Assembly: GCA_009784935.1 (NCBI GenBank)
Contig: WQXI01000001.1
Span: 62,001 to 126,000 of the forward strand
DNA from: Treponema sp.
GTDB lineage: Bacteria > Spirochaetota > Spirochaetia > Treponematales > Breznakiellaceae
DNA: 64,000 bases
Direction of reading: 5' to 3'
The position numbers and the translations under genes were made by a program. Positions 884 to 61,135 of the stretch are shown in pieces. Position 1 is the stretch's first letter. The number at the start of each line of letters is the position of its first letter. The notes under the pieces were generated by a model, which worked only from the letters and a program-made list of their open reading frames with translations, ran no database searches and had not been told where the DNA came from.

Positions 884-2779
884 TTGAAAAATATTCTGGT
901 AGTCCCTGCAATTGAACAAAAACGGGGCGGAGGACATTTATGCAGATGCATTTCACTCACCTGTGATTTACGCGCTATGGGCTGTAAAGCCATGTTATAC
1001 CTTCCTTCTCAAACAGTAACATCAAATTTTGTTAACTTTTTTGAATCTATGAACTTTAACCGATCATGGCTCATTTTTGATGAAGAAATAAAAATTAAAA
1101 ACGAAAACTTTCTGGAGAAATTTGACTTTATTGTTTTAGATAGATTTAATACTCCTTTAGACGAACTATTACACTGGCAAACTATTGCGCCGGTTATTGG
1201 AATTGACGAAGGCTCCAAGCATAGAGATAAATTTGACTTTCTTATTGACATTCTTGTCCCTCTTAATTTTTATAAACACAGGGCAAATATCGCAAGTCCT
1301 AGATTGATTAATTTACCAAAAGATTTTATGCAGAAACACAAAGACACAGAGAAGATTAAAATTTTGGTTACTTTTGGACAAGAAGATTCGGCGGGATTAG
1401 GAATAAAGACGGCTGTTAAATTATCAAAAATAAAAACTCCTAAGCCGCTTGAGATTACATTATTAAAGGGCAATCTTAATACTGCTTCCAATAATAAAAT
1501 CCCGGAGTCGGTTAAAGTATTGGATTCAATTCCTAACTTGTCTGCACATCTTCATGAATACGATCTTGTTATTACCCACTACGGTTTAACAGCGTATGAA
1601 GCATTTTTTGCAGGCGTTCCGGTTCTTCTTGATCATCCGACAAGACTGCATAAAAAACTCGCCAAATCCGCCGGCTTTAAAACATTCTCCAAGTTCCTCA
1701 CACGGAGACACGGAGACACTGAGAACACAAAGTTAAAAACCCTCTGTGATCTTGGTGTTCTCAGTGCCTCTGTGAGAAATAAATCCGATAATTTCTCTTC
1801 TCTTTCCGAGCTAATCAACAGTTTTGCGCTGATGGTTAATCGCTGTTGTCCTGTTTGCGGCTCAGAAAAGAATCTCTGCTCTGCCCGTTTTAGCGATCGC
1901 ACCTACAGAAACTGTAAAAAATGCGGCATAATTTATATGGACAGAACCTGCCCTCCTCCAATTGAATACGAAAAAGAGTATTTCTTTGAAAATTATGTAA
2001 AACAATACGGCAAGACTTATCTGGAAGATTTTGAAAATATAAAAACCGCAGGGAAGAACCGTTTAAAAATAATCGCAAAGATTTCACACGGCGGCACAAA
2101 GACACAGAGAGCACAGAGAAGAAATAAACCAGCGGATTCTTCAACTCTTTTCTCTCTCCGTGCCCGCTGTGACTCCGTGTCTCTGTGTGATGAATCTGGG
2201 AAACCTTCTTTGCTGGATATTGGCTGCGCTTATGGACCGTTTTTAAAAGCAGCGCAAGAAGAAGGCTTCTCTCCCTTTGGTTTAGACCCTGCGCAAGACG
2301 CTGTAAAATACGTTAACGAAAAACTTGGTATTCCGGCTATTAATAGTTTCTTTCCTGTTTCTGACTCTAAACTCCCTGCTCCATTCGATGTTATTACTCT
2401 CTGGTTTACCATCGAACATTTTACAGATTGTAATGCTGTATTAACCGAGATAAAAAAAATACTAAAACCAGACGGCATACTTGCGTTTTCTACTCCATCA
2501 TTCAGCGGAATCAGCGGTAAAAAGTCATTAGGCAAATTCTTGTCTGCAAGTCCTGCCGATCACTTTACTGTTTGGTCGCCAAAGAGCGCAAAAAAAGCTC
2601 TTTCTCTTGCGGGCTTTAAAGTAAAAAAAATAAAAGTTGCAGGTCACCATCCTCAGCGTTTCCCTCTTTTAGGAAAATTAGCTAAGACAAAAAAAAGCCC
2701 GTTGTACTGGGCTTTACTGGCAATCAGCAAACTATTCGGTCTAGGCGATACATTTGAAGTCTATGCGCAAATTAATTAA
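884..2779 (+). CDS. SpsG/PseG-like glycosyl-nucleotide protein fused to a SAM methyltransferase
   Basis: 631 residues from a TTG start with AGAGGAG about 10 bases upstream. Residues 1-260 resemble SpsG/PseG (UDP-sugar hydrolase, GT-B-like): GGGHLCRCISL near residue 15 fits the G.GH..Rcl.L motif, and residues 230-250 carry the C-terminal sugar-nucleotide loop (THYGLTAYEAFFAGVP). Residues from about 320 form a separate unit with a Cys4 ribbon (CCPVCG, then CKKCG) followed by a class I SAM-dependent methyltransferase (LLDIGCAYGPF near 445). The two halves are joined by repeat-derived segments: residues about 271-298 and 401-436 are encoded by palindromic repeats, and a single arm encodes KHKDTEK at about 151. 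Fusion of two pathway enzymes is the simplest reading; the substrate is unknown. Confidence 0.7.
   Translation: MKNILVVPAIEQKRGGGHLCRCISLTCDLRAMGCKAMLYLPSQTVTSNFVNFFESMNFNRSWLIFDEEIKIKNENFLEKFDFIVLDRFNTPLDELLHWQTIAPVIGIDEGSKHRDKFDFLIDILVPLNFYKHRANIASPRLINLPKDFMQKHKDTEKIKILVTFGQEDSAGLGIKTAVKLSKIKTPKPLEITLLKGNLNTASNNKIPESVKVLDSIPNLSAHLHEYDLVITHYGLTAYEAFFAGVPVLLDHPTRLHKKLAKSAGFKTFSKFLTRRHGDTENTKLKTLCDLGVLSASVRNKSDNFSSLSELINSFALMVNRCCPVCGSEKNLCSARFSDRTYRNCKKCGIIYMDRTCPPPIEYEKEYFFENYVKQYGKTYLEDFENIKTAGKNRLKIIAKISHGGTKTQRAQRRNKPADSSTLFSLRARCDSVSLCDESGKPSLLDIGCAYGPFLKAAQEEGFSPFGLDPAQDAVKYVNEKLGIPAINSFFPVSDSKLPAPFDVITLWFTIEHFTDCNAVLTEIKKILKPDGILAFSTPSFSGISGKKSLGKFLSASPADHFTVWSPKSAKKALSLAGFKVKKIKVAGHHPQRFPLLGKLAKTKKSPLYWALLAISKLFGLGDTFEVYAQIN
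1697..1776. repeat. In-frame CACGGAG/CACAGAG palindromic repeat inside a coding region
   Basis: The left arm starts CTCACACGGAGACACGGAGA and contains CACTGAGAACAC. The right arm ends CTCAGTGCCTCTGTGAG and is its imperfect reverse complement. The whole element is open in the frame of the surrounding gene and adds about 27 residues between the SpsG-like unit and the Cys4 ribbon. Confidence 0.8.
2084..2190. repeat. Second in-frame palindromic repeat in the same gene
   Basis: The left arm is TCACACGGCGGCACAAAGAC followed by ACAGAGAGCACAGAGAAG; the right arm ends CGTGTCTCTGTGTGA, its imperfect inverse. The element is about 107 bases and encodes about 36 residues between the Cys4 ribbon and the methyltransferase core without breaking the frame. 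Confidence 0.8.
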
Positions 2780-3087: not shown

Positions 3088-4899
3088 ATGAAAGAAGCAA
3101 TTATAATTTTAGGCGCGGGAGTCATGCAAGAGCCTGCCATCAATATAGCAAAGGAACTTGGTTTCTATACTATCGTTCTTGACGGCAGTTCATCGGCTCC
3201 GAATGTTTCGCTTGCTGACAGATTTGAACAAATCGATCTAAAAGACAAGGAAAGTATCGAAACCTTTGCAAGGTCTATTCAAAGCTCTTTTAGCCGTCTT
3301 GGAATAATGACGGCAGGTACAGATTTTTCGGCAAGTGTCGCATGGACAGCGGAAAAACTGGGGCTTCCCGGCATTCCGTACGAAGCGGCGCTTAATGCTT
3401 CTGATAAGGGCCGGATGAGAGAATGTTTTAGGAGAGCAAATTTGCCTTCTCCCGATTTTTTTACTATAACCGCCAATAACGATTTATTATGCTCTGACCC
3501 GCGGCGCGCTGTGCTGGATAAACCCAGCACGTATAATTCATCTCAAACGGATTTTACTTGCGCCGGAACGTTTTGCATTAATTCATCCACACCTCTTGAC
3601 GAGGTGCTTTTTCGGTTCCCTTTAGTAATCAAACCTGTAGACAATATGGGAAGCCGGGGGTGCAGGCGTATCGATAACATCGATGAGTTTCCGGAAGCGG
3701 CAAAAACAGCTATAAACTTTTCACGCTCGGGAAACGCGATTATCGAAAGCTACATGGATGGTCCCGAGTTTTCTGTTGACGCTATTGTTTACAAGGGCGA
3801 AATTACAATCTGCGGTCTTGCCGACAGACACATTTTTTTTCCGCCGTATTTTATCGAAATGGGCCATACAATGCCTACTGTTATTGATAATGAAAAACAA
3901 AATTCAATGCTCAAAACTTTCTGCAAAGGCATTCATGCTCTTGGTATTGCGGGAAAAGAAAATATAGGAGCTGCAAAAGGTGATATTAAACTAACGGTCA
4001 ATGGTCCAATGATCGGCGAAATTGCCGCGCGTCTTTCTGGCGGATATATGTCAGGCTGGACATACCCGTATTCTTCGGGGGTTTACCCAATAAAAGCTGC
4101 GATTCTTGCCGCAATGAATAAAACCATCGAAGGGCTAATTCCAACCAAAAAATGGACATGCGCCGAGAGAGCGTTTATTTCTATACCGGGAACCGTAAAA
4201 CAAATCATCGGTGCGGAAGACGTTAAATCCGTAGAGCATGTAAATAATTTCTTTCTGCGTATCAAGGAAGGCGATAAGGTCGCTTTCCCCGAAAATAATG
4301 TGACAAAGTGCGGGAATATTATCGCTTCTGCGCCGGAGAGGGAAACAGCAATAAAAGCCGCAGAAACAGCAGCAAGATCGATCTTAGTCCGCCTTGACCC
4401 TAACGACATGGAAACCGCTGATTTCCTATCAAAAAAGAATAATAAACCACGGAGTACACAGAGTTTCACGGAGAAAGAAAAAGTTTCCGAACAAATACCT
4501 CCGTGTTCCTCTGTGGTTAATAAGGATATAGATATATGCTTTCCGCCGGATGCTTTCGAGCTTACCAAAGAACTACAAGAGGCTCTTTCACAAGTCCCGG
4601 AAATTGTAGATATAAGCACACAAATTTTTCTTCCTTATCTCATTCCCTTTCCTGAGTTTGAAGCTTCGGGTCTCACCGATTACATGGGAAGGTCGGTTCA
4701 AGAAGTCCTAGACGCAGTCAGTATATTGACAGGTTTTCCACTCCCAAAAGCTCCTGAAAATGCCGAAAATAATATAAGGCTGGGTCGTTCTTTTTGGACA
4801 GCCCTAATCCGCGGCTCATATCAGGGCGCGGCTTACTACATAGACAATTTGGGAGAAAAATGGACAACAAATTACAAATCTGCAGAAATGTATATGTAA
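3088..4899 (+). CDS. ATP-grasp carboxylate-amine ligase-like protein with extra C-terminal domain
   Basis: 603 residues. The N-terminus has a nucleotide-binding pre-ATP-grasp fold (ILGAGVMQEPAINIAKELG), then ATP-grasp features: FPLVIKPVDNMGSRG near residue 175-190, SVDAIVYKGE, and a metal-binding GEIAARLSGGYMSG near 310. This resembles the CarB/PurK-like ligases that join a carboxylate to an amine at the cost of ATP. After an in-frame palindromic repeat (residues about 453-477) comes a tail of about 125 residues I do not recognise. Residues about 133-170 look like a further insertion before the FPLVIKP strand. It sits between glycan genes and a cell-wall amidase, so a cell-envelope substrate is possible. 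Confidence 0.7.
   Translation: MKEAIIILGAGVMQEPAINIAKELGFYTIVLDGSSSAPNVSLADRFEQIDLKDKESIETFARSIQSSFSRLGIMTAGTDFSASVAWTAEKLGLPGIPYEAALNASDKGRMRECFRRANLPSPDFFTITANNDLLCSDPRRAVLDKPSTYNSSQTDFTCAGTFCINSSTPLDEVLFRFPLVIKPVDNMGSRGCRRIDNIDEFPEAAKTAINFSRSGNAIIESYMDGPEFSVDAIVYKGEITICGLADRHIFFPPYFIEMGHTMPTVIDNEKQNSMLKTFCKGIHALGIAGKENIGAAKGDIKLTVNGPMIGEIAARLSGGYMSGWTYPYSSGVYPIKAAILAAMNKTIEGLIPTKKWTCAERAFISIPGTVKQIIGAEDVKSVEHVNNFFLRIKEGDKVAFPENNVTKCGNIIASAPERETAIKAAETAARSILVRLDPNDMETADFLSKKNNKPRSTQSFTEKEKVSEQIPPCSSVVNKDIDICFPPDAFELTKELQEALSQVPEIVDISTQIFLPYLIPFPEFEASGLTDYMGRSVQEVLDAVSILTGFPLPKAPENAENNIRLGRSFWTALIRGSYQGAAYYIDNLGEKWTTNYKSAEMYM
4446..4518. repeat. In-frame CCACGGAG palindromic repeat in the ATP-grasp gene
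   Basis: Left arm ACCACGGAGTACACAGAG, right arm CCGTGTTCCTCTGTGGT, imperfect inverse complements. It lies at the junction between the ATP-grasp part and the C-terminal tail and is read through in frame. Confidence 0.8.
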
Positions 4900-28116: not shown

Positions 28117-28647
28117 TCAACGAAAAGCGTCAATATTTACTCTATCCCCTTCTTTAACCCCAACACGGGAAAACCAGCCCTGAGGCACTTCTAATGCATA
28201 ACGGACAGACCTCGAAGAATATACCGAAGTCGTATCGTGGGGGTACATATTTTTGATATCGATAATTATGCCTTCTGATGTTATGTATGCGATAGAAAGC
28301 GGAACAAGTGTATTTTTCATCCAGAACGATAATATTCTGTCTGTTTCAAAAATAAATAACATGCCTTCTCCGTCGGGTAGTTTTTCCCTGAACATCAGCC
28401 CCTGCATATGCTCTTCCGGTGTACGGGCAATTTCTGCTTTAACTACTGCAATTTCTTTTCCATCTCTCTCTATTATTACATTATGAAAAACCGTCTCATT
28501 CGATGTGCAAGAAGCCAAAAAGAATAACAAAAAAATCCACGGATTTACGCGGATTTTACGGATTAAGTCAAAAAATTTTAATCCGTTATAATCTGCGATA
28601 ATCTGCGGACAATTAATAGATTTTAGACTTAATTTCTCAGAATTCAT
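28117..28647 (-). CDS. DUF192 lipoprotein
   Basis: 176 residues. The start at ATG 28647 overlaps the stop of the gene upstream by 11 bases. The core (IARTPEEHMQGLMFREKLPDGE..., FWMKNTLVPLSIAYI, ALEVPQGWFSRVGVKEGDRV) matches DUF192, a small secreted domain of unknown function. The lipobox LASC ends at about residue 47, unusually late, because residues about 13-38 are encoded by a palindromic repeat inserted before the hydrophobic FLLFFLASC segment. An internal start is not obvious. Export as a lipoprotein is inferred. Confidence 0.8.
   Translation of the reverse strand: MNSEKLSLKSINCPQIIADYNGLKFFDLIRKIRVNPWIFLLFFLASCTSNETVFHNVIIERDGKEIAVVKAEIARTPEEHMQGLMFREKLPDGEGMLFIFETDRILSFWMKNTLVPLSIAYITSEGIIIDIKNMYPHDTTSVYSSRSVRYALEVPQGWFSRVGVKEGDRVNIDAFR
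28534..28610. repeat. CCGCGGATT-family palindrome inside a signal-peptide region
   Basis: One arm reads TCCACGGATTTACGCGGATT on the plus strand; the other, reverse complemented, begins TCCGCAGATTATCGCAGATT. Arms of about 30 bases flank a loop of about 15. It is in frame with the DUF192 gene and supplies the charged RKIRVNP part of its signal peptide. Confidence 0.8.
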
Positions 28648-50121: not shown

Positions 50122-50143
50122 GAGATTTTTTGAAGAAGACTTT

Positions 50144-50188
50144 ATCCACGGATTTACGCGGATGAAGACCTCACACGACGACACAGAG
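50144..50188. repeat. Left composite arm: CCACGGATT plus CACACGACGACACAGAG
   Basis: TCCACGGATTTACGCGGAT, then GAAGACC, then TCACACGACGACACAGAG. Its inverse partner is not close by but beyond the toxin-antitoxin genes. Confidence 0.75.
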
Positions 50189-50233
50189 ATCTTTTCTCTT
50201 GTTTTTTTTACTTTTATATATTAAGATTACAAT

Positions 50234-50470
50234 ATGTACGATGAAAACCTTGACCGTATAACTCAAAATCCCGCTGTAATGGGTGGCAAGCCCTGCATTC
50301 GAGGCATGCGTGTTACGGTTGGAATGATTGTTGGACAAATAGGCGCTGGTATCGGAATTGATGAACTTCTTACTGATTATCCATACCTTGAACGTGAAGA
50401 TATTTTTCAAGCATTACGGTATGCTGCTGCATTGTCTCAATGGCGTGAGGTTTCACTCGTAGAAGCATGA
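50234..50470 (+). CDS. DUF433 antitoxin
   Basis: 78 residues. It begins YDENLDRITQNPAVMGGKPCI and continues RGMRVTVGMIVGQIG, the DUF433 signature (I..dP.i.gGkP.irGtRitV), a winged-helix/HTH antitoxin that binds its own promoter and the toxin. The preceding AT-rich stretch (ACTTTTATATATTAAGA) is the likely promoter. It overlaps the toxin start (ATGA). Confidence 0.88.
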   Translation: MYDENLDRITQNPAVMGGKPCIRGMRVTVGMIVGQIGAGIGIDELLTDYPYLEREDIFQALRYAAALSQWREVSLVEA

Positions 50471-50832
50471 AAATTCTTATAGATATGAACCTTTCGCCAA
50501 CATGGGCTGACTATCTAAGTGCAAATGGTATAAATGCAATTCACTGGTCATCTATTGGTTATGCTGATGTTCCTGACACTGAAATCATTTCGTATGCCAA
50601 AGAACATGATTTTTCCATTCTTACAAACGATCTTGATTTTGGCTTTATTCTTGCAATTACCCATGGTAAAAAACCAAGTGTTATACAAATAAGAAGCGAG
50701 ATTCTTTCTCCTGATACAATTGGTGGTATAGTAGTTAGTGCTATTAAACAGCTCTATACCGAAATAAATGATGGTGCTCTTGTTACTATCGATCCACGCA
50801 AGACTCGTGTGACCTTGCTTCCTTTACAATAA
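50467..50832 (+). CDS. DUF5615 PIN-like toxin
   Basis: 121 residues. It opens MKILIDMNLSPTWADYL (first acidic position) and has DVPDTEIISYAKEHDFSILTND-type acidic residues (TNDLDFG), as in DUF5615, a PIN-domain-like nuclease fold. Such proteins pair with DUF433 as type II toxin-antitoxin modules; the target is probably RNA. Translationally coupled to the antitoxin. Confidence 0.87.
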   Translation: MKILIDMNLSPTWADYLSANGINAIHWSSIGYADVPDTEIISYAKEHDFSILTNDLDFGFILAITHGKKPSVIQIRSEILSPDTIGGIVVSAIKQLYTEINDGALVTIDPRKTRVTLLPLQ

Positions 50833-50856
50833 ATTCTCGCAGTCGATACCCCTCCC

Positions 50857-50922
50857 TTCTTCTCCGTGGTCTCTGCGTCGCTGTGCCTTTGTGTGAGTCT
50901 CTTTTCCGCGAAAATCCGCGGA
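50857..50922. repeat. Right composite arm, inverse of the arm at 50144
   Basis: CTCCGTGGTCTCTGCGTCGC, then TGTGCCTTTGTGTGA, then TTTTCCGCGAAAATCCGCGG. Its reverse complement begins TCCGCGGATTTTCGCGGA and continues TCACACAAAGGCACAGCGA, matching the left arm in the same order. Confidence 0.75.
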
Positions 50923-50923
50923 C

Positions 50924-51535
50924 CTATTTTGAGTTAATCTTTATCTGCAGTGAGGCGCGTTCATTCTGGAGCACCATTAAAAGTTCTGGATCGTCAAATG
51001 GAACTACAAAACGGTATATTTCGTCATTTTCTTTTGTAAAAAAGATACGGTGATAAAAGACAGGATAGTTTTCTTCCTCCGGTAAAGCAGGAACAGATAC
51101 AGCAATGTCCACAGCTCCGGTGTACGCTTTTTCATTTTTAACATTCTTTCTTAAAACAAGTATCGTACTGCCCTCGAATATTGTCCCGTTAATTTCGATT
51201 TTGTTTCCTTCCAGTATATGAGTAGTATCAAAATACCCAAGTCTGGAAAGCATAAATACAGCGATACAAAGCAGTATGATTACTATAAAAAGCAGTCTTC
51301 TTGGTTTATCAGCAATTAGTACGCCTAAAAAACCAAAGCGGCTGGTCTTTTTTTCTTTATAAAGATCCTGAACTTCTTTGGGAGCATTTTCGAGTCTTCT
51401 TTCGCGGCTGTAATGATAAACAATGCTGTCATCTCTTTCAATTTCTCTGTTAGAACTACTTAGACTATAATTCGTGTTTGGTCTCTTTTTAATATTATCG
51501 ATTTCATTTTCGTTATCTTTATTTATATCACTCAA
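50924..51535 (-). CDS. Single-pass membrane protein of unknown function
   Basis: 203 residues from a TTG start at 51535 that overlaps the upstream stop (TTGA) with GGAGAA in front; a longer frame to 51571 is less likely. A charged cytoplasmic N-terminus of about 80 residues (KKRPNTNYSLSSSNREIERD) is followed by one membrane helix (LLFIVIILLCIAVFMLS) and an extracytoplasmic beta-rich domain of about 100 residues. No known family. It appears to form an operon with the lipoprotein gene. Confidence 0.7.
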   Translation of the reverse strand: MSDINKDNENEIDNIKKRPNTNYSLSSSNREIERDDSIVYHYSRERRLENAPKEVQDLYKEKKTSRFGFLGVLIADKPRRLLFIVIILLCIAVFMLSRLGYFDTTHILEGNKIEINGTIFEGSTILVLRKNVKNEKAYTGAVDIAVSVPALPEEENYPVFYHRIFFTKENDEIYRFVVPFDDPELLMVLQNERASLQIKINSK

Positions 51536-52731
51536 TGCGCTTCTCCGATAAATCTGTCGGTTCGCCACCAAACAAATTTTACGCTAAAGTTATCTGCAAA
51601 CATAGCAGACAGGATTCCTTCCGGTGAAAGAAAAAAGTCGTTATATCTGAGTTCGTCAATTGTAAAATGTATAAATCCCCTGCGCTGTTCGCGCGAATGA
51701 GTGTCAACAAACAACAGCGAATTTCCGTTTCCTGATTCTACAGGAAAATAAAGAAGCAGTTTTCCGTTTCGCGCGGCACCCATTACCGAATAAAAAACTT
51801 TATTATGCCGGTTGTTCTCAAAAGTCTCGTAAAGTGGGATTTCTACAGAGCCGATATAAGAGCCGTTTTCTACATTAAGTGTCCAAATAACAGAACTAAT
51901 AGGCTCGCTTCCTGTACGCGCGTTCGTCGATTGATCAAATGTATCTCGGCTGTAATTTACTTTCATATAGAGCCTTCTGGAATCAGGAGAAACAGTAACG
52001 CTGTCTATATAAGCAAGAGCTTCCGGCCAGTCAGCAAGCGCAGGCACTTCTGACGAAGATATTTTTACGATATAAAGGTGCATTCCTGATGAATTAAACC
52101 AATAAATTTCCCAGCCGTCAGGAACACGGCAAGTTACGGCGATTTCGTCTCTGATGGTAGAAGTCAGTCCAACAATTCTTGGGAAAGGACTGCCGCCGAT
52201 TCCTTCTCTGCCAAGAAAATTAATGTAACGTCCGTTTTGATCAAAATGAAGTATTATACCGTCAAGCAACGCCCTTGTTTCTGTGTCGGAACGGTGATCC
52301 TGCAAAGGAAGCCTGTCTTCTACAAATATGTGTCTTCTGGAATCTACAGTTATCCAACCGGGTCCTTCCAGCGGATATGAATATGCCCAGCGTGTTACCT
52401 GTTCGCTGCCTGTTATATTTGGTCTTAGAGTAATAGGCGGCGGATTTGTTTCTTCGTTATAAATCATAAATAATAAATTACCGTACGAATTATAACGGAC
52501 AATCTTGGCGCTGTTTCCGTCAGATATATAAAAGGAGCCGTCGCGCATTGTAAAACTGATACTCTTTATGCCTCTGTTTCCTTCAATGCTGTAAAGGGCA
52601 AGCTGATCTTCCATGGGACCGATTTCCAGCGAAAACCGGTCTTCTCTTTCTACAGACCCAATACCTGTATTTCTGCAGGAAAAAACGAGTAAAACTGTAA
52701 TAATCAGCACTAAACCTTTCATTTTTGTCAT
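51532..52731 (-). CDS. Lipoprotein, probable beta-propeller
   Basis: 399 residues with lipobox LVFSC (Cys at about residue 19). Repeated strands with phrases such as GSFYISDGNSAKIVRYNSYG, GWITVDSRRHIFVEDRLP and GIILHFDQNGRYINFLG suggest NHL/YVTN-like propeller blades of about 45 residues. Spirochaetes have related lipoproteins of unknown role. It is coupled to the membrane protein gene downstream. Confidence 0.72.
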   Translation of the reverse strand: MTKMKGLVLIITVLLVFSCRNTGIGSVEREDRFSLEIGPMEDQLALYSIEGNRGIKSISFTMRDGSFYISDGNSAKIVRYNSYGNLLFMIYNEETNPPPITLRPNITGSEQVTRWAYSYPLEGPGWITVDSRRHIFVEDRLPLQDHRSDTETRALLDGIILHFDQNGRYINFLGREGIGGSPFPRIVGLTSTIRDEIAVTCRVPDGWEIYWFNSSGMHLYIVKISSSEVPALADWPEALAYIDSVTVSPDSRRLYMKVNYSRDTFDQSTNARTGSEPISSVIWTLNVENGSYIGSVEIPLYETFENNRHNKVFYSVMGAARNGKLLLYFPVESGNGNSLLFVDTHSREQRRGFIHFTIDELRYNDFFLSPEGILSAMFADNFSVKFVWWRTDRFIGEAH

Positions 52732-60780: not shown

Positions 60781-61135
60781 CGAACCACCGAAGGACCGAA
60801 GAGGAAGAAATTGTCCGCGGACGAAGCCCGAAGGGATTTTCGCGGATGAAGAGGTTCACACGGGGAGCACAGAGAACACGGAGAAGATCTAAGGTTAAGA
60901 CTAGATTTCTTTCTTTAACCTTCTTATATTCTCTGTGTCCTCAGTGTCTCTGTGCCTTTGTGTGAACTCTTCTTTATTAAACCCTTCGACACTTCGACAT
61001 CCTTCGACGAACTCAGGATTCAGCTCAGCGACATCATGGACATTCTCTGTGTTACTCTGTGGTTAAATTCTTCTTCATTATCCTCTGTGATCTCTGCGTC
61101 GCTGTGCCTTTGTGTGAAGTCTTCCCCGTGAGGCT
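60781..61135. repeat. Block of composite repeats filling a 355-bp gap
   Basis: From left to right: GTCCGCGGACGAAG ... TTTTCGCGGATGAAGAGG, a long CACAGAG hairpin (GTTCACACGGGGAGCACAGA to GTGTGAAC at about 60964) whose loop holds AAGGTTAA/TTAACCTT, a CTTCGACACTTCGACATCCT stretch with GAACTCAGGATTC, then two right-arm-type segments (TTCTCTGTGTTACTCTGTGG; GTCGCTGTGCCTTTGTGTGA). No gene is supported in this stretch. Confidence 0.8.

Follow-up and report, generated by a model that had tools for sequence, protein, structure and literature searches.

A predicted DUF433–DUF5615 toxin–antitoxin pair between mirrored palindromic arms in a Treponema genome: probably a passenger of repeats whose usual cargo may be a GxxExxY gene

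1. A Gene Pair Between Mirrored Repeat Arms

Do the mirrored repeat arms that enclose a predicted toxin–antitoxin gene pair in this Treponema sp. genome form a single mobile unit with that pair as its cargo, or does the pair lie as a passenger between copies of a repeat family that spreads by other means? The window, i.e., the whole stretch of 64,000 nucleotides that was analysed, belongs to an assembly of 2.37 Mb in 68 contigs (94.6% complete). The initial annotation of the locus had proposed a palindromic element whose loop carries the pair as a stabilising cargo, which could explain the spread of the repeats. The features of the locus, in window coordinates, are the following:

50135..50145, + strand: outer extension of the left arm, GAAGACTTTAT, common to the composite arms at C11:1950 and C4:3580 and lacking in the right arm
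50146..50162, + strand: module A of the left arm, CCACGGATTTACGCGGA, 1 mismatch against CCGCGGATTTNCGCGGA
50171..50188, + strand: module B of the left arm, TCACACGACGACACAGAG, 0 mismatches against TCACACRRNGNCACRGMG
50234..50470, + strand: DUF433 gene (COG2442-type predicted antitoxin), 78 aa; PF04255, E 1.6e-23; PDB 2ga1, E 3.7e-4
50467..50832, + strand: DUF5615 gene (PIN-like, predicted toxin), 121 aa; PF18480, E 4.5e-25; PIN_10, E 1.9e-8
about 50860..50896, - strand: module B of the right arm, longer than that of the left arm; match to the module-B pattern
50905..50921, - strand: module A of the right arm, CCGCGGATTTTCGCGGA, exact match to module A

Both arms (50146-50188 and 50860-50921) carry the same two modules, A outside and B inside, in mirrored order, as had first been noticed, and their pairing is far above chance. 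Aligned with the reverse complement of the right flank, the left flank obtains a score of 24, whereas mismatched flanks of the other DUF5615 loci do not exceed 14, and the arm–arm duplex reaches -56.7 kcal/mol (RNA parameters) against -28.8 +/- 3.8 for 300 shuffled left arms, an energy that 0 of 310 window segments equal. Open reading frames and profile matches confirm that only the DUF433 and DUF5615 genes, whose frames overlap by 4 bases, lie between the arms; there is no GxxExxY gene (see below) at this place. A DUF433-type antitoxin gene beside a PIN-like toxin gene is the composition of the COG2442-PIN type II toxin–antitoxin systems, to which the pair is predicted to belong.

A single palindromic mobile unit, the loop of which carries the toxin–antitoxin pair as stabilising cargo, would account for mirrored composite arms that pair strongly and enclose only these two genes. 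However, the left and right arms are not each other's best partners: eight other arms outscore the right arm as partner of the left one (rank 9 of 133), the B part of the left arm is the shorter, and the two differ in subtype at their outer ends, with no counterpart of the left extension outside the right module A. By eye, no target-site duplication was seen at 50135-50923. The right arm adjoins the stop codon (50924-50926) of the next gene.

2. A Dispersed Family of Palindromic Repeats

The module-A pattern (CCGCGGATTTNCGCGGA-like, at most 3 mismatches) has 59 matches in the genome, compared with 10 for the reversed-pattern control, the module-B pattern (TCACACRRNGNCACRGMG-like, at most 2 mismatches) has 163 compared with 25, and a further class, C (CCACRGAGNACACRGAG, at most 1 mismatch), has 130 compared with 1. 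Across 195 genomes of the bacterial family, class-C matches range from 0 to 251 per genome, the maximum being that of G182, with at least one match in 89. Moreover, when arms were sought with a detector for two CACRGAG-like units, 447,685 bp yielded 85 of them, against 3 in a Markov control, and a larger sample of 847,685 bp, partly chosen because it contained hits, yielded 134. In this larger sample, 46 of the 134 arms have a facing partner at most 250 bp away, which bears out the early remark that elsewhere the arms close on a short loop. Copies that close in this way, and copies placed within reading frames, are found in the window itself:

60815..60985, no strand: cargo-free hairpin of an A-like stretch and B arms; DNA fold z = -8.6, a value that none of 200 shuffles reached
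28537..28608, no strand: class-A palindrome with a short loop
1698..1785, no strand: B-type palindrome, in frame in ORF 884-2779, in a linker that varies widely among relatives and is longer in some
2077..2199, no strand: B-type palindrome, in frame in ORF 884-2779; the linker is shorter in 20 of 20 aligned relatives
4445..4521, no strand: class-C palindrome, in frame in ORF 3088-4899; the frame runs through, as seen in this genome only

Thus, three palindromes sit in frame in two protein genes, as in the Rickettsia type of insertion, and their absence in relatives was compared for ORF 884-2779 alone, of which 20 of 29 relatives' loci were aligned. Arms able to pair directly outside an operon could also be transcription boundaries, i.e., terminators or mRNA-stabilising hairpins kept around it with no link to mobility, but the same arms occur inside reading frames and are missing around the pairs of relatives, which makes this explanation very improbable. 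Flank scores, folding, and duplex energy give the arm family the terminal inverted repeats of miniature inverted-repeat elements (MITEs). As judged from sequence, the arms are a dispersed, mobile-looking palindromic family that includes short hairpins, in-frame inserts, and gene-enclosing copies.

In a genome so rich in repeats, two independent insertions could have come to flank an accessory gene pair by coincidence, an explanation that is conceivable but rather doubtful. The frequency of the modules and the different subtypes of the left and right arms would agree with it, and so would the base rate: on C1 (to which the window belongs), C2, C3, and C6-C10, 812 intervals comprising one or two ORFs were counted, and inward B/C-type arms lie on both sides at 4 of them (3 independent sites, the present locus included), against 2 with outward, 1 with ++, and 1 with -- orientation. 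Given this base rate, B-type arms on both sides are unremarkable here and it is the mirrored A+B order that is distinctive. Of the 21 best module-A copies, only 8 are, by eye, such A+B composites, whereas at this locus both sides are, and in mirrored order, which argues against coincidence. The solo arms lying 300-3000 bp apart in the 847,685-bp sample (13 inward, 5 outward, 7 ++, and 3 --) point in the same direction, although this sample was partly chosen for its hits and at least 3 of the 13 inward pairs are, by eye, not real pairs. A general excess of inward arms around any gene was considered and set aside, the less biased count being only 4 inward (3 sites) against 2 outward.

3. The DUF433–DUF5615 Pair in Other Genomes

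DUF5615 is present in 39 of the 195 family genomes. At none of the 19 usable loci of relatives do mirrored arms surround the DUF433–DUF5615 pair, and they are likewise missing at the second copy of this genome; the 22 loci with usable flanks consist of the 2 own ones, the 19 of relatives, and L073, which was dropped since its short contig produced a false direct repeat. An inverted score of 18 at L076 was rejected as arms, being a gappy A/T-rich alignment. Around DUF5615, the detector found 2 arms in 86,760 bp (29 relatives' loci). Furthermore, at least 4 class-C matches occur in 10 of the 39 genomes with DUF5615 and in 28 of the 156 without it (p = 0.27), so that the gene does not track class-C abundance in a test that ignores ancestry and takes class C as a proxy for all arms. 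The repeats are also numerous away from the pair, as the class-C counts in this genome and in G182 indicate.

The gene pair therefore exists without the mirrored repeats, contrary to the idea that it spreads them. The part of the initial proposal that holds is the dispersed palindromic family with some copies that enclose genes, not the toxin–antitoxin pair as the spreading cargo, and a single unit of this kind is accordingly quite unlikely. In its favour, a genome from another family of the phylum (G386) holds the DUF433–DUF5615 pair among 4 arms in 3,193 bp, compared with 3 arms in 117,061 bp of the genome; against it, the long flanking copies in G386 are direct (score 56 over 78 alignment columns), the inverted flank score is 7, and on the left side there is, by eye, only a short facing arm. 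In G294, a genome rich in arms (20 in 135,143 bp), a truncated DUF433–DUF5615 pair is flanked by an arm on one side and by a hairpin on the opposite one. Nothing was found in the literature searched on DUF433 together with DUF5615. The pair is most likely a passenger and not a regular cargo of the arms.

Direct repeats scoring at least 20 flank 8 of 31 DUF433–DUF5615 loci, 4 of 28 loci of the 23S IVP protein, and 3 of 28 loci of the control gene, each of these three with a score of exactly 20. When L408 and L410 (gappy alignments) and L086 (weak) are set aside, five of the eight are clear (L072, L070, L083, L411, and L405), and at these the pairs lie between direct repeats whose sequences differ and whose lengths run from 25 to about 146 nt. 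A search for four of the five repeats in 41 to 100 kb of the respective genomes gave only two matches of 17-18 nt, both to one repeat. In G386, a second toxin–antitoxin-like pair (PHD-like and PIN-like, by eye; L405, 1896-2549) follows the DUF433–DUF5615 pair.

The gene next to the right arm (window 50924-51571) encodes 215 amino acids and is found in 168 of the 195 family genomes, this one included. Among 29 relatives' loci of about 1.5 kb each (L132 ends at a contig edge), none has a cysteine desulfurase match beside the 215-aa gene and none is syntenic with the 50135-50923 locus. In many relatives (L120-L148), the 215-aa gene is, by eye, followed by another shared gene, and here it is adjoined instead by the arms, the DUF433–DUF5615 pair, and a cysteine desulfurase gene. 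The differing neighbours in relatives suggest a rearrangement at the place of this gene.

4. GxxExxY as a Recurrent Enclosed Gene

It had been proposed to search for loci where the same arms enclose different small genes, and arms of the family do enclose other genes in this genome: two with GxxExxY genes (C2 and C28), a composite on C5, and lipoprotein/HTH pairs on C24 and C33. The GxxExxY gene at C2:22991-23362, which surfaced when inward arm pairs were inspected, is enclosed by class-C arms and matches both models of its family (PF13366, E 4.3e-40; TIGR04256, E 1.5e-42). The second own copy, at C28, lies between class-B arms, the arm class of the DUF433–DUF5615 locus, and, by eye, copies elsewhere lie between class-B arms in G155 and class-A arms in G070. 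In addition, C4:45727-45966 aligns with the C2 element on both sides of a gap (95% across 192 nt and 98% across 133 nt) that takes out the central part of the gene, and it is clearly an internal deletion of the gene-bearing element.

Across phyla, the best 80 of 129 GxxExxY loci (from Bacteroidota, Kiritimatiellota, Cloacimonadota, and one Treponema of the Spirochaetota) contain 124 arms in the 47,187 bp that lie at most 300 bp from the gene and 23 in the 334,272 bp farther out, a density about 38 times higher near the gene, with a query gene that itself lay between arms and could favour arm-flanked relatives. Inward arms lie on both sides at 36 of the 80 loci, a figure that is too low, given that any arm overlapping the start of the gene was scored as far. 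The two arms of a locus match each other, with a mean score of 23.6 compared with a maximum of 17.9 in 2000 permutations over 77 loci, and they also do so when each of 32 groups is represented by one hand-picked locus (p <= 2e-4).

Within the bacterial family, the association is weaker than across the 80 cross-phylum loci. The 30 GxxExxY loci of the family, one of them from this genome, contain 29 arms in 82,341 bp, about nine times the density at control-gene loci (4 arms in 102,948 bp), and a second family search found arms in 16 of 27 loci; B/C-type arms within 350 bp are present at only 10 of the 30, which weighs against GxxExxY as the usual cargo, and at a further one class-A modules flank the gene on either side. 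At least 4 class-C matches occur in 21 of the 53 genomes with GxxExxY against 17 of the 142 without it (p = 6e-5), and with a threshold of at least one match p is 0.075, under the same limits of ancestry and proxy as the DUF5615 test. Moreover, no GxxExxY hit was obtained in eight genomes that contain at least 10 class-C matches, among them G002 with its weak PF13366 hit, which also speaks against such a cargo and implies that the gene is not needed for the arms to persist.

The residues E27, D67, E77, and K79 are the same in all of the 21 chosen GxxExxY proteins, and they may form a PD-(D/E)XK active site, as the general pattern of that fold and the Pfam name suggest; no solved structure matching the protein by sequence was found. 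In G131, from the same bacterial family, the GxxExxY flanks look, by eye, identical to those of a Treponema metagenome bin. A literature search on GxxExxY, PDDEXK_3, and PF13366/TIGR04256, judged by titles and the starts of abstracts and with most subscription journals outside its coverage, returned nothing on palindromic elements, nor on palindromic arms that enclose members of this family in several phyla.

5. A Possible Route of Spread

The best explanation, with a probability of about 0.58, is that the palindromic repeats are the spreading unit, that their usual cargo is GxxExxY, and that the DUF433–DUF5615 operon is a passenger between two half-copies. Full copies would consist of a GxxExxY gene, probably encoding a PD-(D/E)XK nuclease-like protein, between arms of class A, B, or C, and the short hairpins would be either deletion derivatives or arms closed on themselves. 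In cis or in trans, the nuclease could cut at or near extruded palindromes or their targets, repair of the break could copy the palindrome into the cut site, and template switching between the arms could keep the left and right ones matched. The DUF433–DUF5615 pair might then have entered a palindrome, or ended up between two halves of one, via recombination or insertion. Nevertheless, with modules in the mirrored order A-B...B'-A', a single element carrying toxin–antitoxin cargo is plausible, and the similar composite at C5:39047 encloses other genes; both points count against the passenger model.

The hypothesis that the GxxExxY nuclease moves the repeats fits its association with the arms, the matching of the arms, the internally deleted copy on C4, and the absence of Y1 transposase hits. 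The Y1 transposase (PF01797) was rejected as mobiliser, with 0 hits in this genome (94.6% complete assembly). The earlier impression that no transposase is visible is correct in this respect but not entirely, since a Transposase_31 gene is present, and there may thus be a mobiliser other than the GxxExxY nuclease. More generally, it is proposed, only tentatively, that GxxExxY genes with inverted CACRGAG/CCGCGG arms could be a cross-phylum class of selfish palindromic elements, moved by a PD-(D/E)XK nuclease and not by a known transposase, which would shed hairpin derivatives into genes and intergenic regions and sometimes take up foreign small genes such as the toxin–antitoxin pair or lipoprotein/HTH pairs.

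6. Comparison with Known Systems

Rickettsia palindromic elements are, as outlined in an excerpt of PMC10969869, palindromic repeats inserted in frame in protein genes. The in-frame palindromes described here resemble them by description (PMC10969869, same excerpt), whereas the present arms are built of CACRGAG and CCGCGGATTT modules and the larger copies enclose genes. In the REP/RAYT systems (REPtrons), palindromes are dispersed and a palindrome-flanked gene is proposed as mobiliser, according to a part of PMC3733652, which also presents CGTC-type REPs as seemingly without a dedicated transposase. Dispersed palindromes and a gene flanked by palindromes are found here too, but with no Y1 transposase hit and with a flanked gene that is PD-(D/E)XK nuclease-like. 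As with MITEs, there are small inverted-repeat elements, one of them an internal deletion of a gene-bearing copy; unlike MITEs, no target-site duplication was seen by eye at 50135-50923 and no matching transposase was identified in the Y1_Tnp search. COG2442 (DUF433)-PIN is a predicted toxin–antitoxin pair in the portion of PMC2701414 that deals with it, and both gene types are present here as a predicted pair, although the predicted toxin is of the DUF5615/PIN_10 type.

Some bacterial palindromic repeat families have no known mobilising enzyme, as stated in the excerpt of PMC3733652, and GxxExxY would be a concrete candidate for this role. The gene recurs between matched arms in Spirochaetota, Bacteroidota, Kiritimatiellota, and Cloacimonadota, and it could help to explain why class-C matches vary from 0 to 251 per genome within one family. 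If this is true, the DUF433–DUF5615 pair illustrates the uptake of a passenger and not the cause of repeat spread.

7. Other Enclosed Genes and Neighbouring Elements

Two different small genes lie inside the composite that runs from C5:39047 to about 40440, the right-hand module A of which is, by eye, degenerate. At three places, C24:32147-33515, C33:1212-2355, and C33:7191-8229 (L114, L116), inward arms enclose a small lipoprotein-like gene paired divergently with an HTH regulator, and the left flanks of the two C33 pairs are near-copies. The 23S IVP four-helix protein (PF05635) was tried as another cargo and discarded, with 1 arm in 96,097 bp over 30 loci; four of its loci (L398-L401) have strong flanking direct repeats, with scores of 73 to 97.

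At C2:22890-23700 (L150), the GxxExxY copy lies between the start and the end of a Transposase_31 (Rpn-like) gene, the middle of which is missing, and an intact reference copy of the latter is located at C2:35660-36550. By BLAST, remnants of the Transposase_31 gene are also found at C28:310-1205 (L337), where its end is present, and at C4:45763-45990 (L105), where its start is.
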